Assembly: GCA_025060325.1 (NCBI GenBank)
Contig: JANXBW010000029.1
Location: forward strand, 1 to 57,819
Length of the DNA: 57,819 bases
Direction of reading: 5' to 3'
Origin: Thermoguttaceae bacterium
GTDB taxonomy: Bacteria; Planctomycetota; Planctomycetia; Pirellulales; Thermoguttaceae
A program made the position numbers and the translations under genes. Below, in pieces: positions 24,773-56,253 of the stretch; position 1 is the first letter of the stretch; every line of letters begins with the position of its first letter. The notes beneath the pieces were generated by a model. The model was not told the origin of the DNA and searched no databases. It saw nothing but the letters and a program-made list of their open reading frames with translations.

Positions 24773-26875
24773 ATGAGAACCCGTGCGCGCTGTGGGTGGC
24801 TTCGGGTTGGCAAATGGAGGCTGGCCATTTTCCTAACCACTTTTCTAAGTACACTTGCGCCCAGCTTCGCCGACCAGGCCATGCCCTTCGGGGAAGCGGA
24901 CGTCCAGCTCCTTATTCGGCATGTTGTTCCCCTTCCCAAGAAGATAGAAGTCATAGGTCTCGCGACGCTTCCGGGGGATGAGCTTGTTTTGTTTATGCCG
25001 GCGAGATCCTCCGCGATCCTTGGACAACTGGAAGCTGACTGGCAAAAGACCTTCGTTGGGGCCTATGGCGTTAACATAAAGATCACGCGAACCGATGCCC
25101 TTTTCCGGCACATTGTGTTGACAAATAAAGCCCGCAAGCTTTCCGACATAAAAATCGACCCGGCAGACCCGGCTCGCCTTAAAGAGCGACCGAACGTGCA
25201 GGAGGCCTACCTCATTGTGCCTTTAATCGATTCGGGTAAGCCCGCCAAATGGCAAGCGACCGTCCTATCTGCGGTGGATGACCGCGGGCTCCTATACGCC
25301 TGCCGGACATTGCTACAGCTTGTGCAGGGAGCTGGCAAACTTGCAAAGGGCCCGCCAGGGGTAAGAATCCCGATTTGTGCCGTTGAAGATTGGCCGGACC
25401 TCCCCGAACGCGGTCTGTGGGGTGCTTATGCTCTCGCATCTTTGCCGTGGCTATCCGAGCGCAAGATGAACCTGGTGGAAACGCACGCCACCCGTCTTTT
25501 CGTAAACGTCGACGGCCGCGGCGAAGCTGCAATTGATCCACAGCTTATCGAGGAGGCCCGCCCTCTGGGGATTCGCATTGTGCCCATCATCACCCACTTG
25601 GATCAATTGCGGCGAACTAGGCTTTTCGAACGTTACCCGCATGTCCTAGGGAAGGGCGATCCGAAAAGCTGGCCGGACTGGGTGGACGGGCCGGTGTGCT
25701 GGTCGCAAGCTGATGCCCGCCGGGTGTTGACCGATTGGGTGTGCTCCTTGGCTGCCAATCCCTCTGTGGATGCCGTCACGATCTGGCTCAGCGAGGCACC
25801 CGTCCAGTGCCGCTGTGAGGAATGCCTCCGCGAAAATCAGTATGTGCAGGAAGTTCGCGCAGCTTTGGCGGCCTGGGAAGAAGCCAGGAAAGCCCGCCCG
25901 GAACTCAAGCTGCGCATTCTCCTCACACAGGGCAGTTATCCTGTGAACGATCGCCTGCTTGACCTTATGCCGCGAGAGGTCCAAGTTATTTACTATGACG
26001 GAGGGCGAACCTATACAAGCTCTCATGCTCCGATGATCGAACCGCGGCTAGAGAAGTTTGTGGCGGCCGGCGGATGGCTGGGGGTGTGTCCTCAACTAAC
26101 AGCCTCCTGGCGGATTGTCAGCCCGTTTAGCGGTGCTCATTTTATTCGCGCCCGGATGGAGGAATTTATCAACAAGGGCCTACGTTGCCTCTACGGTTAT
26201 GCCACGCCCGGGATTGCTTACTGGCAATTCAATGTGGAAGCTGCCGCAGAGTGGAGCTGGAACATATCCGGCCGGTCCACGCGAGAGTTTGCCGCCGCCT
26301 GGGCCGTGCGGCAAAATATTGGCCAGCCGGAGTTAGTTGCCGATTGGTCGGAGCGGTTAGGACCAGTCAGTTGGGATGTTTACGCCTGCGGCATCCCCTA
26401 CCCGTGGTTTTTTGGTAGGGTAGCGGGCGAGGTTCGAGCCGGCCGACCAATTCGGCCAGGCCAAGGGCCCCTTGCCGAAATCCCCACCGCCGAGCGACTT
26501 GCCCAGGACAAAAAGTCGGCCCAAGAAGCGCTGGCCCTTGCACACAAAATTGGCCATCCCCAACTGATTAACGAGTCCCAGGTAATCCTAAGTTACGTCG
26601 AGATCCTAGCTGCCCTTCCTGAAATAACCGCGCTACTAAACAAGGTGCGGAACAAGGAGCCCCTGTCGCAAGAAAAGACGGAGCGACTCAAGGAACTTTC
26701 ACAACAGGTGGAAGAGGCCGGTGCCCGCCTGCAAGAAGCCCTTTGGTCCTGGGCCAGGACGTGCCATCCTGATGTTGACAAAAAACCCCCTAGCCGGTTT
26801 GTCGACACCGTTGATGTCTGCCGGCAAACGGCCTCCGCCACCGTCGAAGCGATTAAAGCCGCCCTCGGCAAATAA
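24773..26875 (+). CDS. Secreted GH20/GH67-N-like glycoside hydrolase family protein
   Basis: A 700-residue exported protein. A signal peptide (about 1-33, ending SFAD) is followed by an alpha/beta domain (about 45-200) like the non-catalytic N-terminal domain of GH20 and GH67 enzymes, including the DDRGLLYACRTLLQLVQ helix. A TIM-barrel-like region follows (about 210-530). A CRCEECL cysteine cluster near 345 and the preceding IWLSEAP lie where GH20-like proteins carry their acidic pair, but I cannot assign D-E catalytic residues with confidence. The C-terminal 120 residues are helical. GGAGGG precedes the ATG. It may be a hexosaminidase- or glucuronidase-like enzyme, or a non-catalytic homologue. 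Confidence 0.75.
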   Translation: MRTRARCGWLRVGKWRLAIFLTTFLSTLAPSFADQAMPFGEADVQLLIRHVVPLPKKIEVIGLATLPGDELVLFMPARSSAILGQLEADWQKTFVGAYGVNIKITRTDALFRHIVLTNKARKLSDIKIDPADPARLKERPNVQEAYLIVPLIDSGKPAKWQATVLSAVDDRGLLYACRTLLQLVQGAGKLAKGPPGVRIPICAVEDWPDLPERGLWGAYALASLPWLSERKMNLVETHATRLFVNVDGRGEAAIDPQLIEEARPLGIRIVPIITHLDQLRRTRLFERYPHVLGKGDPKSWPDWVDGPVCWSQADARRVLTDWVCSLAANPSVDAVTIWLSEAPVQCRCEECLRENQYVQEVRAALAAWEEARKARPELKLRILLTQGSYPVNDRLLDLMPREVQVIYYDGGRTYTSSHAPMIEPRLEKFVAAGGWLGVCPQLTASWRIVSPFSGAHFIRARMEEFINKGLRCLYGYATPGIAYWQFNVEAAAEWSWNISGRSTREFAAAWAVRQNIGQPELVADWSERLGPVSWDVYACGIPYPWFFGRVAGEVRAGRPIRPGQGPLAEIPTAERLAQDKKSAQEALALAHKIGHPQLINESQVILSYVEILAALPEITALLNKVRNKEPLSQEKTERLKELSQQVEEAGARLQEALWSWARTCHPDVDKKPPSRFVDTVDVCRQTASATVEAIKAALGK

Positions 26876-43572: not shown

Positions 43573-45051
43573 TTACTGGCCGTCGATGCTTACGCCCAAG
43601 GCCAGTAGGACATCTTCGATGCGGTTGGCCACTGCCGTAGTGCCGTTTGAATTGCCCGCGAAAAGCAGCCCGACCGGAACCCCCGCAGGAATCTGTCGCG
43701 AATCATCTCTGCAGGTCATAAGGAACGATCCGGAATCGCCTCCGGCGATGAAGCCGCCGGGCGGTTGGCTCACCGCAATCTAGTTCACAAATCAAGCGGT
43801 GCCACGCGAGTAGGTCACAAGGATTGTCGTGTCTATGCTAGTGACCATCCCCTGAGTGAAGCCGGCGGTTCGACCAAACTTCTGGACGGCGAAACTGCCG
43901 CCGGCAAAAATTGTGGACAGCGCCTGATTTGTCAGATGATTTGCTTTGGGTGTGCCATAGCCCGCCGGTAGCGTTGATGTGTCAACCAGGGGTTTAGCGA
44001 AGGCCCAATCCACGGCGGCAATGGCTCCGTCCACTCTGTTACTGGCCACCCGGCTAAAAGTGATTGAGATGAACTTGGAAAGCGTGCCTACCCGCTGCCA
44101 CGCGTAAGGAATCCCGCCGCCTGTATCATAAAGCCCCGGCTGGAAGATCCATTCGCCGACCTTGGCCAGGTTCTCGCGAGGCATTACGGGATTGTTGCTC
44201 AGGATGTAGAGCCTTTGGAGTCTTTAACGCGGCAGCCAAGTGTCCCCGCCGCCAGCTCGTATTGGTTGCCAATAGAAACCCCGATAGGTGCCACAGGCTC
44301 GATCATGGGACGCAGTTCGGACCAACGCTCCGGGGAATAATCCGGAGGCTCTCCGGCAGCGTTGTCCACAAAAACAGCGATGTTGTGGCTAGCCTTCTGA
44401 CCCTTGGTGTCGGTGGCCTCGGCCCGAAGTATGTAACGGGCATCGGTGTAGCTTGTGCTCGGCCAGGGTAAACTCCACTCATCCGAGGCCGTAATGTCCA
44501 CACCCAACAAAATGGGGCTGGCCCCTCCGTAGAAGGCATTCCATTCTTGGTAGCAAAAAGCGACACTTACTACCCCGCGGTCATCGGTTGCTTTGAACCT
44601 GTAAAGTGACATTTCCCACAAGGGTTCGGCCGTCGACAGGCGAAATGAATCGCACCGTTGGTGGTTTGTCCGAGGACCGCTGACCAGCTGTCAACACGGC
44701 CGCTTGCCGGACAAAGGGCAGGTAACCCAAAGCAAAAATCTCCCCCGTTTCTACCACCTCGACTTCCACATCTTCCACAGCCTTCGGCACGCCAGCAGGC
44801 CGACCCTTGCGGGTCAACACCTCTAAGACCGGCCGATCCTGGGCACCCAAGCCGATACCCACACCCACCACGTCAGTAACCTCAAGCAACCGATCGGCAT
44901 GCCGTGCGTGTAGAGCTTGTGCACGAACCAGCGCCTCGAGCCGGGTCTTCCCCGGGCCTTAAGCCATGGCCGGAACCTGCCCCCACGACACCCACACAAC
45001 AAACCCCGCTACCAGCCACGTGAACACGCGCCGACAAATCTCGCGGAACAT
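43573..45051 (-). pseudogene. Decayed trypsin-like serine protease gene with an inserted Ig-like domain
   Basis: An ATG at 45051 opens a signal peptide (FTWLVAGFVVWVSWG, ending AMA) that stops at TAA 44959-44961, where Gln is expected. In the same frame comes VGVGIGLGAQDRPVLEV, then an Ig-like domain (SPVDGRTLVGNVTLQV, ILRAEATDTKGQ). A frameshift lies near 44596 and a second near 44215. The protease part reads PIGVSIGNQYELAAGTLGC, LYILSNNPV, ENLAKVGEWIFQPGLYDTGG, DGAIAA, FGRTAGFTQG and GGDSGS. The codon for the catalytic His of LSNNHV is a Pro codon (44188-44190). In-frame TGA (43792-43794) and TAG (43780-43782) stand where homologues have Arg and Gln (ARFVNQI). Three stops fit C-to-T changes (CAA, CGA, CAG). 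The Ser motif and the final residues survive. Confidence 0.85.
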
Positions 45052-46232
45052 GATCGGCCCCTCCCGCATGGATGACTGACAGGCGTTCTCCCTCTTAAAG
45101 ATGCCCACCACACCGCCATATGGCAGCCATCATTTAGGGGGATATCAATACCCCGGCGACAAGCAGTTCATCGGCCGGTCCTCAGCACCTATGAAAACCA
45201 TTTGCGCGCTCTTGGTTTGGCCGGGTGATTGCAGGGGGTGGTTGATGCGCTCTGATGTAGGCAAATCCTGGACCTTTGGCCCTTGCTGCTCGAAATCCCG
45301 AAATTTAAACCATCCCAATCGGCCCAGAATAAACCAGCACAATCGGACGACAAGTTTTCGGCTTTCACCTAAATTCCCCAACTTCTCACAAGCGGGAATC
45401 TTCTCGCTAGCCGTATTTCCGAGGCGGCCGGCATTGAGACTCCGAGCAATGGTCCCTTAAGACGGAGCTGGGTGGCGCAAGGCTAATCTTTAACCGGCCG
45501 GTTAAGAAAACCCACCGGGAAACACCAAGGCGGTTGCACTATCCGCGGCGCTGGCTCGGGGAGCATCCCTCCTTTCGCCCGATCGGCCACCTTCTCGGCC
45601 CCTAGCGTCCGCGGGGGGGCGAAGAACGCCCATTTCGCTTGGACTTGCCGGAGGATTACCACCTGAGAGACTGACGGGCCAAACTCGGGAATATGTTCTT
45701 GCACGAAACCCACCAGGGCCGGGATCGCCGGAGCAACTTAAAGGGCAGCCGAACCTCGACGGTTTTTGTGGACTTTCGCTGCAAAAATTTGGGACCTCGC
45801 CAGGGCGACTAGGACGATTGGGCAAAAGTCTCTAACAAGCTGCAAGTTGCCAAGAGGCAGCAGCGGAATTTGTTCGATACCCAATCCTGAGTGACACTGG
45901 CACCTGGCTCCCGCCCGAAAGACAAGATCGAATGTCCCCGGTAGAGGGGCATGGAGCTACCACCATCAGCTAAGCGCCCTGCAAACCCTCCGCACCCATA
46001 ACTACCCAAAAAAGACGCGACTTTTTTTGGGCTGAAACTCCAATGCGATGCAGCCGCAGATAGGCGGCGACAGTCAGTGGGAAGTCAGCCAGCTAGTTTC
46101 GCGTTGCCTCCCAGAGCCAGAATACCTTGAGCTTCCCCAAATTCTTTCTATACTGGCAAAGTGCTGGCACAGCCGGCTTCCGCCCATGCCGGTAGGTTTA
46201 GGTGACCTAGCTTGTTGCCGGGGAGTAAAGCA
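45052..46232. other. Long spacer with possible gene fragments
   Basis: I can support no intact gene in these 1181 bases. On the - strand at about 45483-45800 two overlapping frames look faintly protein-like (STKTVEVRLPFKLL, then PALVGFVQEHIPEFGPSVSQVV) as if split by a frameshift, but I cannot name a family. A hairpin with A/T-rich arms lies at 46005-46031. Confidence 0.4.
46005..46031. repeat. A/T-armed inverted repeat upstream of groES
   Basis: CCCAAAAAAG (46005-46014) faces CTTTTTTTGGG (46021-46031) across a six-base loop. The T-run is inside the stem, so it could act as a terminator for either strand. It lies about 200 bases before the GroES start. Confidence 0.4.
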
Positions 46233-46517
46233 GTGAAACTCGTCCCACTCGGTGCAAGTATCATCGTACGGCCTCTTCGGGCCTCGGTGGGTTCGGGTCA
46301 ACTTGTAATGCCGGAGGATTTCCGCTCCGGCGTTTCGCGGGGACGGGTTCTTTCGGTGGGTGATGGACGTTTGCTCCCCAATGGTGGGCGAGCAACTCCC
46401 CAGGTGGCCGAAGGGGATTGCGTCCTTTACGAAGATTTCGCCGGCATCCCGGTAGAGATTAACGGCGAAAAACTTTTGCTTCTTACCGAAGACGAAATCC
46501 TGGCCATCGAAGGCTAA
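46233..46517 (+). CDS. groES: Co-chaperonin GroES
   Basis: A 94-residue GroES (Cpn10) subunit that caps the GroEL folding chamber. The N-terminal strand KLVPLGASIIVRPL, the mobile-loop region near residues 15-30, the GRVLSVGDGR stretch and the C-terminal EDEILAIEG match the family, and the length is normal once the GTG start at 46233 is used; GGGGAG lies 7 bases upstream. The mobile loop (RASVGSGQLVMPEDF) departs from the usual S-x-GGI-V pattern, and the usual GD.V.Y..Y.GTE is GDCVLYEDFAGIPV. No GroEL gene is beside it, so it may be an extra, divergent copy. Confidence 0.88.
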   Translation: MKLVPLGASIIVRPLRASVGSGQLVMPEDFRSGVSRGRVLSVGDGRLLPNGGRATPQVAEGDCVLYEDFAGIPVEINGEKLLLLTEDEILAIEG

Positions 46518-54771: not shown

Positions 54772-56253
54772 ATGAGCGACCAATGGTACGTGCGGATCGG
54801 CACGGAAATTCGTGGTCCGCTCACCCGTGCTCAGGTATTGGGACTCCTGACCCAAGGCCTTCTCTCCCCGGAGGACGCCCTCAGCCGAAGCCCGAGCGGC
54901 CCGTGGACTTTAGTAAAAAATGTGCTTCCTGGGGCGGGAGCGCCCGCGGGCGATTCCCCTTCCGCCCCGACCTCTCCACCAGCCGAGCGGACTCCCCTCC
55001 GGCCTCAATCGCCCCAACCACCGGTCGCCGCACCCGTTCCCCCGCCGGACAGCCCCCCGCCGCCTGTCCCTCCCCAGGCGGGTCTTACCCCAACCGCAAC
55101 GGCAACTTCTTTTTCCAAAGCCCGGCACCCTGTAACCTCCACCCCCTCCGGCGAGCATCTCTCCCCGGCTGAGATCCGGCGGGAGAAGCGCGCCAAGCAA
55201 TTTGCGCTAGTTGGCGTACTTTGTGCCCTCTTGCTCGGCTCGCTGGTCTCCGGGGCGATCCTTGTGTTTGCCGTTTACAAAATCCGCAGCTGGCTTGCGA
55301 CCTCGGCTCAGCAGCCCAAAGAGCAACGACGGTCCGCCCAGACCGGTGCCCTGCAAGTTCCCCCCGTCAAAGCCGAGCAAGACCTCGATGAACTGCTTGC
55401 CGGCGTGGGATCACTCCTTGCCGAGCAACCCACCGGCCCAACTGACCAAGGCCAGTCTACTCCGCGGTGGCTGAATGCCAGTACCGAAACCGCCCAGCTC
55501 GGACCGTTTACGATTCGCGTGCTCAAGGCGGAAATTGGCTTTGGCCGGCTCATTTCCCCCGCAGGCCGTGCCGTCCGCTTTCGCGATCCTTGCCTCCTTG
55601 TGACGCTCCAGTACACGGTGGATACCCCTGGTAAGCAGGCGGCCTTCCGGGGCTGGACGCAAACCGCCCGCTCGGGCTCCCTCCCCATTCTCCAGGATCA
55701 CGCCGGCCGACAGCTCCCCCTGAAACGCTACGGAGGCTTCCGGTTGGAAGGTCAGGCCGAACCGGCCGAGCTTAGCCCCGGCGAATCCCTCACCGACGTG
55801 CTTGCCTTCGAGGCCCCCGCCGGCACTGTCCGCTCCCTTCGCCTGGTGATACCCGGCGAACCCTTCGGCGCTAAAGGCCAAGTGGGCTTTATCCTCCCGG
55901 CCGACATGGTCGCCGATGCCCGCCCCGCCGGTGGCACGCCTCAGCGGCTAAGCACACTAAGGACTAGCGATCGCTCCACAGAAGACTCTCCGGAGGATCG
56001 CGACTCTGCCGGACGAGCTGCTCCCGTTGCGGCCGCCAAACCGGGCGACAGTGCCGCCCCGGTGCCCTCCGATCAACCTGACGAGCGAATTCCTATCCCG
56101 GGTCTAGAAGAAGAGCACGCCCCCCAGGGCGAACAAGCCGGCCAGCCGCCACGCGAATTTGCTGACGATCCCAAGTTGCAAGCTTTGGGCGAAGAGACGT
56201 CCCGGCAACTCCTCCGGCAGCGTCCCGCCTCGGACAGCCGCCGCGGACGCTGA
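54772..56253 (+). CDS. GYF-domain membrane protein with Pro-rich linker
   Basis: A 493-residue protein of unknown function. The N-terminal GYF_2/DUF4339-type domain (about 1-52: QWYVRIGTEIRGPLTRAQVLGLLTQGLL) usually binds proline-rich peptides. A Pro-rich segment (about 60-105) could be an internal ligand. One transmembrane helix (about residues 145-170: FALVGVLCALLLGSLVSGAILVFAVY) separates this cytoplasmic part from an outer region. That region has a beta-rich domain (about 240-385: LGPFTIRVLKAEIGF, FRDPCLLVTLQYTVD), which resembles DUF4352-like folds, and an acidic disordered tail. AAGGA precedes the ATG. The architecture is common in planctomycetes; the function is not known. Confidence 0.88.
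   Translation: MSDQWYVRIGTEIRGPLTRAQVLGLLTQGLLSPEDALSRSPSGPWTLVKNVLPGAGAPAGDSPSAPTSPPAERTPLRPQSPQPPVAAPVPPPDSPPPPVPPQAGLTPTATATSFSKARHPVTSTPSGEHLSPAEIRREKRAKQFALVGVLCALLLGSLVSGAILVFAVYKIRSWLATSAQQPKEQRRSAQTGALQVPPVKAEQDLDELLAGVGSLLAEQPTGPTDQGQSTPRWLNASTETAQLGPFTIRVLKAEIGFGRLISPAGRAVRFRDPCLLVTLQYTVDTPGKQAAFRGWTQTARSGSLPILQDHAGRQLPLKRYGGFRLEGQAEPAELSPGESLTDVLAFEAPAGTVRSLRLVIPGEPFGAKGQVGFILPADMVADARPAGGTPQRLSTLRTSDRSTEDSPEDRDSAGRAAPVAAAKPGDSAAPVPSDQPDERIPIPGLEEEHAPQGEQAGQPPREFADDPKLQALGEETSRQLLRQRPASDSRRGR

Follow-up and report, generated by a model that had tools for sequence, protein, structure and literature searches.

What is left of the gene on the minus strand between positions 45051 and 43573 of this stretch of DNA, what did it once encode, and by which events was it lost? 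The stretch that we analysed, referred to as the window, is the 57,819 nucleotides of contig JANXBW010000029.1 from a Thermoguttaceae bacterium (assembly GCA_025060325.1; genome G000 in our comparisons). We conclude that the locus is very probably a recently inactivated gene for a secreted serine protease, and that a relative (G026) lost the same gene separately.

Direct reading recovers the remains of a serine-protease gene from 45051 to 43573, readable in three frame pieces. In the list below, alignment rows are sequences from a 32-row alignment that comprises the window, two parts of the G026 copy and 29 other homologues; all of the features are on the minus strand.

43573–45051, minus: whole pseudogene, derived from a NAL1-like secreted serine protease that carried an Ig-like insert; the three pieces match one homologue almost end to end
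44590–45051, minus: frame piece 1
44205–44600, minus: frame piece 2, in a different frame
43573–44214, minus: frame piece 3
44962–45051, minus: signal-peptide-like N terminus, with a hydrophobic run and an A-x-A end (direct reading; hydropathy maximum 2.1 over 12 residues)
44959–44961, minus: premature stop TAA at codon 31, right behind the signal peptide (codon reading)
44722–44955 (approximate), minus: N-terminal module (HARH..L, VVGVGIG, VEVVETGEI..AL) that is common to homologues (alignments A1 and A2)
44427–44661, minus: Ig-like domain (Pfam Big_7), broken by the first frame break (E 8.7e-6, 26.7 bits)
44590–44600, minus: first frame break, net +1 relative to the G026 copy (alignment to G026)
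44205–44214, minus: second frame break, net -4 relative to the G026 copy (lengths by direct reading, used instead of the gaps of the aligner, which were split and partly an edge effect)
43576–44309 (start approximate), minus: trypsin-like, NAL1-like protease core (profile match to NARROW LEAF 1 chains, best E 1.1e-8)
44188–44190, minus: position of the catalytic His, now CCC (Pro) (all 30 readable homologue rows of alignment A2 have His)
44029–44031, minus: position of the catalytic Asp, GAC, kept (Asp in 30 of 30 readable rows; role assigned from the fold family)
43792–43794, minus: premature stop TGA (Arg in G026 and in 11 of 30 readable rows)
43780–43782, minus: premature stop TAG (Gln in G026 and in 25 of 30 readable rows)
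43726–43743, minus: GGDSGS motif (direct reading)
43732–43734, minus: catalytic Ser within GGDSGS, kept (Ser in 30 of 30 readable rows)
43573–43575, minus: natural stop TAA

The read-through protein, searched in 60 genomes including G000, matched four: G000 itself, G026, G054 and G034. The match in G026, which belongs to the same family but to another genus and which we infer to be Thermogutta terrifontis R1, covers query residues 15–371 at 54% identity (E 2.7e-108) and residues 360–490 at 60% (E 1.2e-36), too strong a match for the chained reading to be a product of chance. G054 matches only the core (42% identity, E 8.9e-23) and G034 only the Ig part (37% identity, E 4.7e-9). Across the phylum, at least 33 of 392 genomes match at E 1e-10, a lower bound because up to four candidates were scored per genome. 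Twenty-eight of the 31 other genomes from that search (three lacked a locus), together with G054, supplied the 29 other homologues of the alignment. The original prediction, which named no strand, had described a decayed protease gene that is readable end to end, with two frameshifts, a signal-peptide-like start, a catalytic His codon changed to Pro and a terminal GGDSGS; each of these features is borne out. The core read-through also shows GLLFAG in addition to the GGDSGS motif.

Five disabling lesions (three internal stops and two frame breaks) are found in 491 codons, in addition to the change from His to Pro. Homology runs across the disabling lesions and none of the 29 other aligned homologues contains an internal stop, so that the alignment to homologues, a check proposed with the original prediction, supports a pseudogene. 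Of the catalytic triad, Asp and Ser survive and His has become Pro. A ribosome that begins at the original start would stop straight after the signal peptide, and no single open frame contains both the His/Asp part and the Ser. Judged from its sequence, the gene is a descendant of a NAL1-like protease, yet should be unable to work as one; with its early stop, two frame breaks and lost His, the window copy could no longer yield a catalytic protein.

The original prediction went further on two points. It took the three stops to have replaced Gln, Arg and Gln, each through a single C-to-T change. The residues in G026 agree for the second (Arg) and third (Gln) stops; at the first, 20 of the 31 other rows are gapped and Gln is found in none of the remaining 11, and Gln at this site was a guess. 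A mutational bias is not shown by three C-to-T changes. Twenty CAA, CAG or CGA codons remain and 3 have been lost, compared with 10 TGG codons (20 G-to-A routes), which gives a chance of three out of three of about (23/43)^3 = 0.15 if all three stops arose by transitions. To call the locus a clear record of how genes decay here is too strong: we have a single young pseudogene, with five disabling lesions and without its catalytic His, in which no bias can be demonstrated and homologues do not show which residue stood at the first stop.

Could the gene be intact, and only look broken? Sequencing or assembly errors might be suspected in a draft genome of 89 contigs; for the gene as a whole this explanation is very unlikely, although a single site could be in error. 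The 25 long open reading frames (ORFs) of the window total 14,445 codons, about three quarters of the contig, and at the same density of breaks (5 per 491 codons) would contain roughly 150 breaks, yet they are open. They were selected for that property; Pfam families are matched by 23, the exceptions being 24773–26875 and 54772–56253. One of the two breaks is a net loss of 4 bases, no run of bases at either break exceeds three, and the change from His to Pro is a further lesion that errors would have to explain. The frames that flank the breaks are well conserved, as they would be if the stops were recoded or the frames were bridged by programmed frameshifting and a protein were made. We consider this extremely improbable, and recoding of stops is rejected on two counts: TAA, TAG and TGA terminate 11, 9 and 5 of the 25 long ORFs, and all 11 trypsin-family matches elsewhere in the genome are free of internal stops. 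Recoding would also leave unexplained the Pro at an otherwise invariant His, and why a single gene should have three different stops as well as two breaks.

Inactivation could also have taken a particular order, in which the His was lost first, the protein was kept as a pseudoenzyme for binding and the stops came later. The Ig domain and the core are indeed still well conserved, but the data do not order the lesions, and changes at conserved sites in the window copy (Ala to Pro at a site that is 76% conserved and Thr to Ala at one that is 97% conserved) could equally reflect a general loosening of constraint; we regard such an intermediate as improbable, although less so than either of the explanations by which the gene is intact.

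Recent inactivation, the reading that we favour, agrees with how little extra divergence the gene shows. A tree built from 31 core sequences, in which G026 was represented by the 5' half of its core (45% of columns), places the window and G026 as sisters (100/98), on end branches 0.45 and 0.46 long. The ratio of changes at codon positions 1 and 2 to those at position 3, measured against G026, is 0.46 in the pseudogene, compared with 0.47 in the neighbouring GH123 gene and 0.56 in the HDOD gene, both intact, that served as controls; the PIG-L gene, compared with L025 (ratio 0.70), was left out of the controls because the comparison covered only a paralogue-like part. The GC content at third codon positions is 0.65, within the range of 0.58–0.67 of the 25 ORFs of the window. 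Where conservation across the remaining 29 rows reaches at least 80%, the window has retained 45 of 49 residues and the two parts of G026 keep 21 of 23 and 26 of 27 (47/50), the other rows ranging from 50/50 to 34/48 and 36/51. At thresholds of 60, 70 and 90%, the window keeps 69/84, 56/64 and 29/31, and the two G026 parts together 75/86, 58/65 and 31/31; the window is thus slightly worse than G026 at 60% and 90%. As branch length, codon positions and GC content reveal no extra divergence, and conserved sites only slightly more, the pseudogene appears to be young, with a history mostly under selection and a recent breakdown. Codon statistics alone would fit an intact gene, and the case for a pseudogene rests on the lesions.

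The nearest copy found, that of G026 (L012/L015/L016), shares the domain order of the window copy, including the Big_7 insert (E 3.6e-14), and is its sister in the tree. Unlike the window copy, it has His, Asp and Ser, and its two parts are without internal stops; the gene is instead split, between the Asp part and the Ser part, by an IS630-like element of 1,275 bp (G026:C1 3185643–3186917, equal to L016 11644–12918; the CTAG at both ends is counted in the length). The element encodes a DDE_3 transposase with a helix-turn-helix (Pfam) and, by direct reading, has inverted ends with CTAG/TA at its borders, a combination that we take to be the signature of the IS630 type. Three further copies in the G026 genome are 100, 100 and 99.8% identical to it, and two more places hold partial, diverged copies; a search for its transposase in G000, G001 and G002 at E 1e-20 gave no match. 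The G026 copy is therefore dead too, through a lesion that is independent of those in the window: point changes and small indels in one copy and a transposon in the other indicate that the two were broken by unrelated events. Beyond the original prediction, what is new is that the closest relative found is also dead, by an independent transposon insertion.

The two copies have an unusual architecture in common. The Big_7 match of the window (read-through residues 131–210) scores 26.7 bits against a Pfam cut-off of 24.1, and the family is found in 2 of the 32 aligned rows, identified from their scores as those of the window and G026, confirming that an Ig-like domain in this place is unusual. 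Other Ig-type families occur in the alignment, with Big_1 in three rows and Big_2 in one. The spacing between the N-terminal module, for which a Pfam scan of 44722–44955 found no match, and the core is 147 residues in the window and 138 in G026, compared with 2–84 in the 29 others (a figure that is less meaningful for L051–L053, in which the module sits elsewhere). Proteases of the same phylum without the insert (L044, L046, L047 and L049 are examples) resemble the window copy in having the N-terminal module and the core, with SNNHV and GDSG, and differ in their short module-to-core spacing (18–30 residues in these four) and in their freedom from internal stops. By eye, L051, L052 and L053 carry a VVGVGIG-like module at the C terminus of the protein, and the module thus appears to move around the protease core.

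The core itself is related to a plant protein. When profile A1 is compared with PDB chains, the core is similar to those of NARROW LEAF 1 (NAL1). The Pfam family Nal1_C matches 20 of the 32 rows at E 0.01; the window (21.9 bits) and the C-terminal part of G026 (22.7 bits) stay below its gathering score of 26.1, and from these scores the protease core would be a relative of Nal1_C rather than a filed member of that Pfam family. The core of rice NAL1 (PDB 7y77, 8hau, 8pme and others) aligns from profile position 220 or 251 to 448. The plant protein differs in having no match to the Ig part, and the window has Pro where the His of the profile meets the second His of NAL1. NAL1 is termed a serine protease in a passage that cites a paper on the degradation of a TOPLESS-related corepressor (PMC11647526; reference also PMC10970654), and a maize relative of NAL1 is described, in the relevant passage of another article, as degrading a TOPLESS-like corepressor (PMC12915138). 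A non-exhaustive search of the literature for bacterial NAL1-like proteins showed no paper on them among the matches listed.

The profile alignment also bears on an allele of the rice gene. When window positions 44188–44193 are set against 7y77_A, 8hau_A and 8pme_A, the invariant bacterial His meets the second His of the NAL1 motif TN(H/R)HV, and the His/Arg site that differs among the three chains meets a variable bacterial column (N in 22 rows, S in 4, H in 2, Y in 1 and G in 1). A His/Arg allele of rice NAL1 is mentioned in PMC4498882. This allele is presumably the site that varies among the PDB chains and, because the invariant His meets the second His of the motif, the alignment suggests that it adjoins the catalytic His rather than being located at it. 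A literature search for this site in relation to the catalytic His returned nothing on point among the matches listed.

How widely is the gene distributed among closer relatives? Within the family, a profile search of 119 genomes at E 1e-5 picked out 7. The protease core is present in five of these (G000, G026, G459, G522 and G524), and in the other two, G034 and G463, the match is confined to the Ig part. The three other same-family homologues of the core are ORFs of 369, 367 and 331 amino acids with SNNHV and, read by eye, look too short for the Ig insert. No other copy was found at E 0.01 in the genome of the window, which is 95.6% complete. An intact gene in sister genomes had been proposed as a check: neither of the two genomes of the same genus, G001 (92% complete) and G002 (98% complete), contains a match to the gene, and the nearest copy, that of G026, is itself interrupted. 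When the matching place in G001 and G002 was sought from both flanking genes, the flanks were on different contigs; the stretches gave DNA matches only on the neighbouring genes and the three protein pieces reached a best E of 0.14, one G002 stretch being ended by the contig end (2,853 bases). Pattern scans of genome and viral contigs returned no relative, although homologues such as that of G026 do occur in the genomes searched above; the result carries little weight because few patterns were used and near records may have been skipped. Among plasmid records there were two weak matches, both restricted to the core.

To the right of the pseudogene, the order of GroES-like, SQHop-like and PIG-L genes is common to G001, in which an extra ORF lies between them. 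The approximately 1.1 kb beside the pseudogene (45060–46204) is without a convincing gene and most of it is without a DNA match in 39 relatives; three ORFs tried there have no Pfam match, and the region may hold older debris. It is followed by a small Cpn10/GroES-like gene (46206–46514, plus strand) that is also found near the same neighbours in G001 (L037 3813–4115). Cpn60, sought among the 25 long ORFs of the window, gave no match.

Taken together, the ancestral product would have been an exported protein with a signal peptide, a small N-terminal module, a Big_7 domain and a trypsin-like, NAL1-related core. Given the signal peptide and the intact triad of its relatives, it presumably cut proteins or peptides outside the cytoplasm. 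The window copy would have lost this capacity through its stops, frame breaks and missing His, and G026 separately through insertion of an IS630-like element. The simplest reading of the two genomes is that these bacteria came to be able to do without the function and are losing the gene. Both of the Ig-bearing protease copies found (2/2) are dead. It is conceivable, although less likely than not, that NAL1-like proteases with the Ig domain form a distinct variant of this one bacterial family, shared with T. terrifontis, that is now useless or costly there and is disappearing repeatedly through independent events.

In kind, this is an ordinary pseudogene, of a rare domain variant. A single pseudogene matters little; the modest value of this one lies in the pair, in which the same rare variant was lost twice by unrelated lesions. 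Our results suggest that at the T. terrifontis locus a single gene has been called as several fragments. Should further pairs of this kind exist, they would reveal exported functions that these bacteria can spare.
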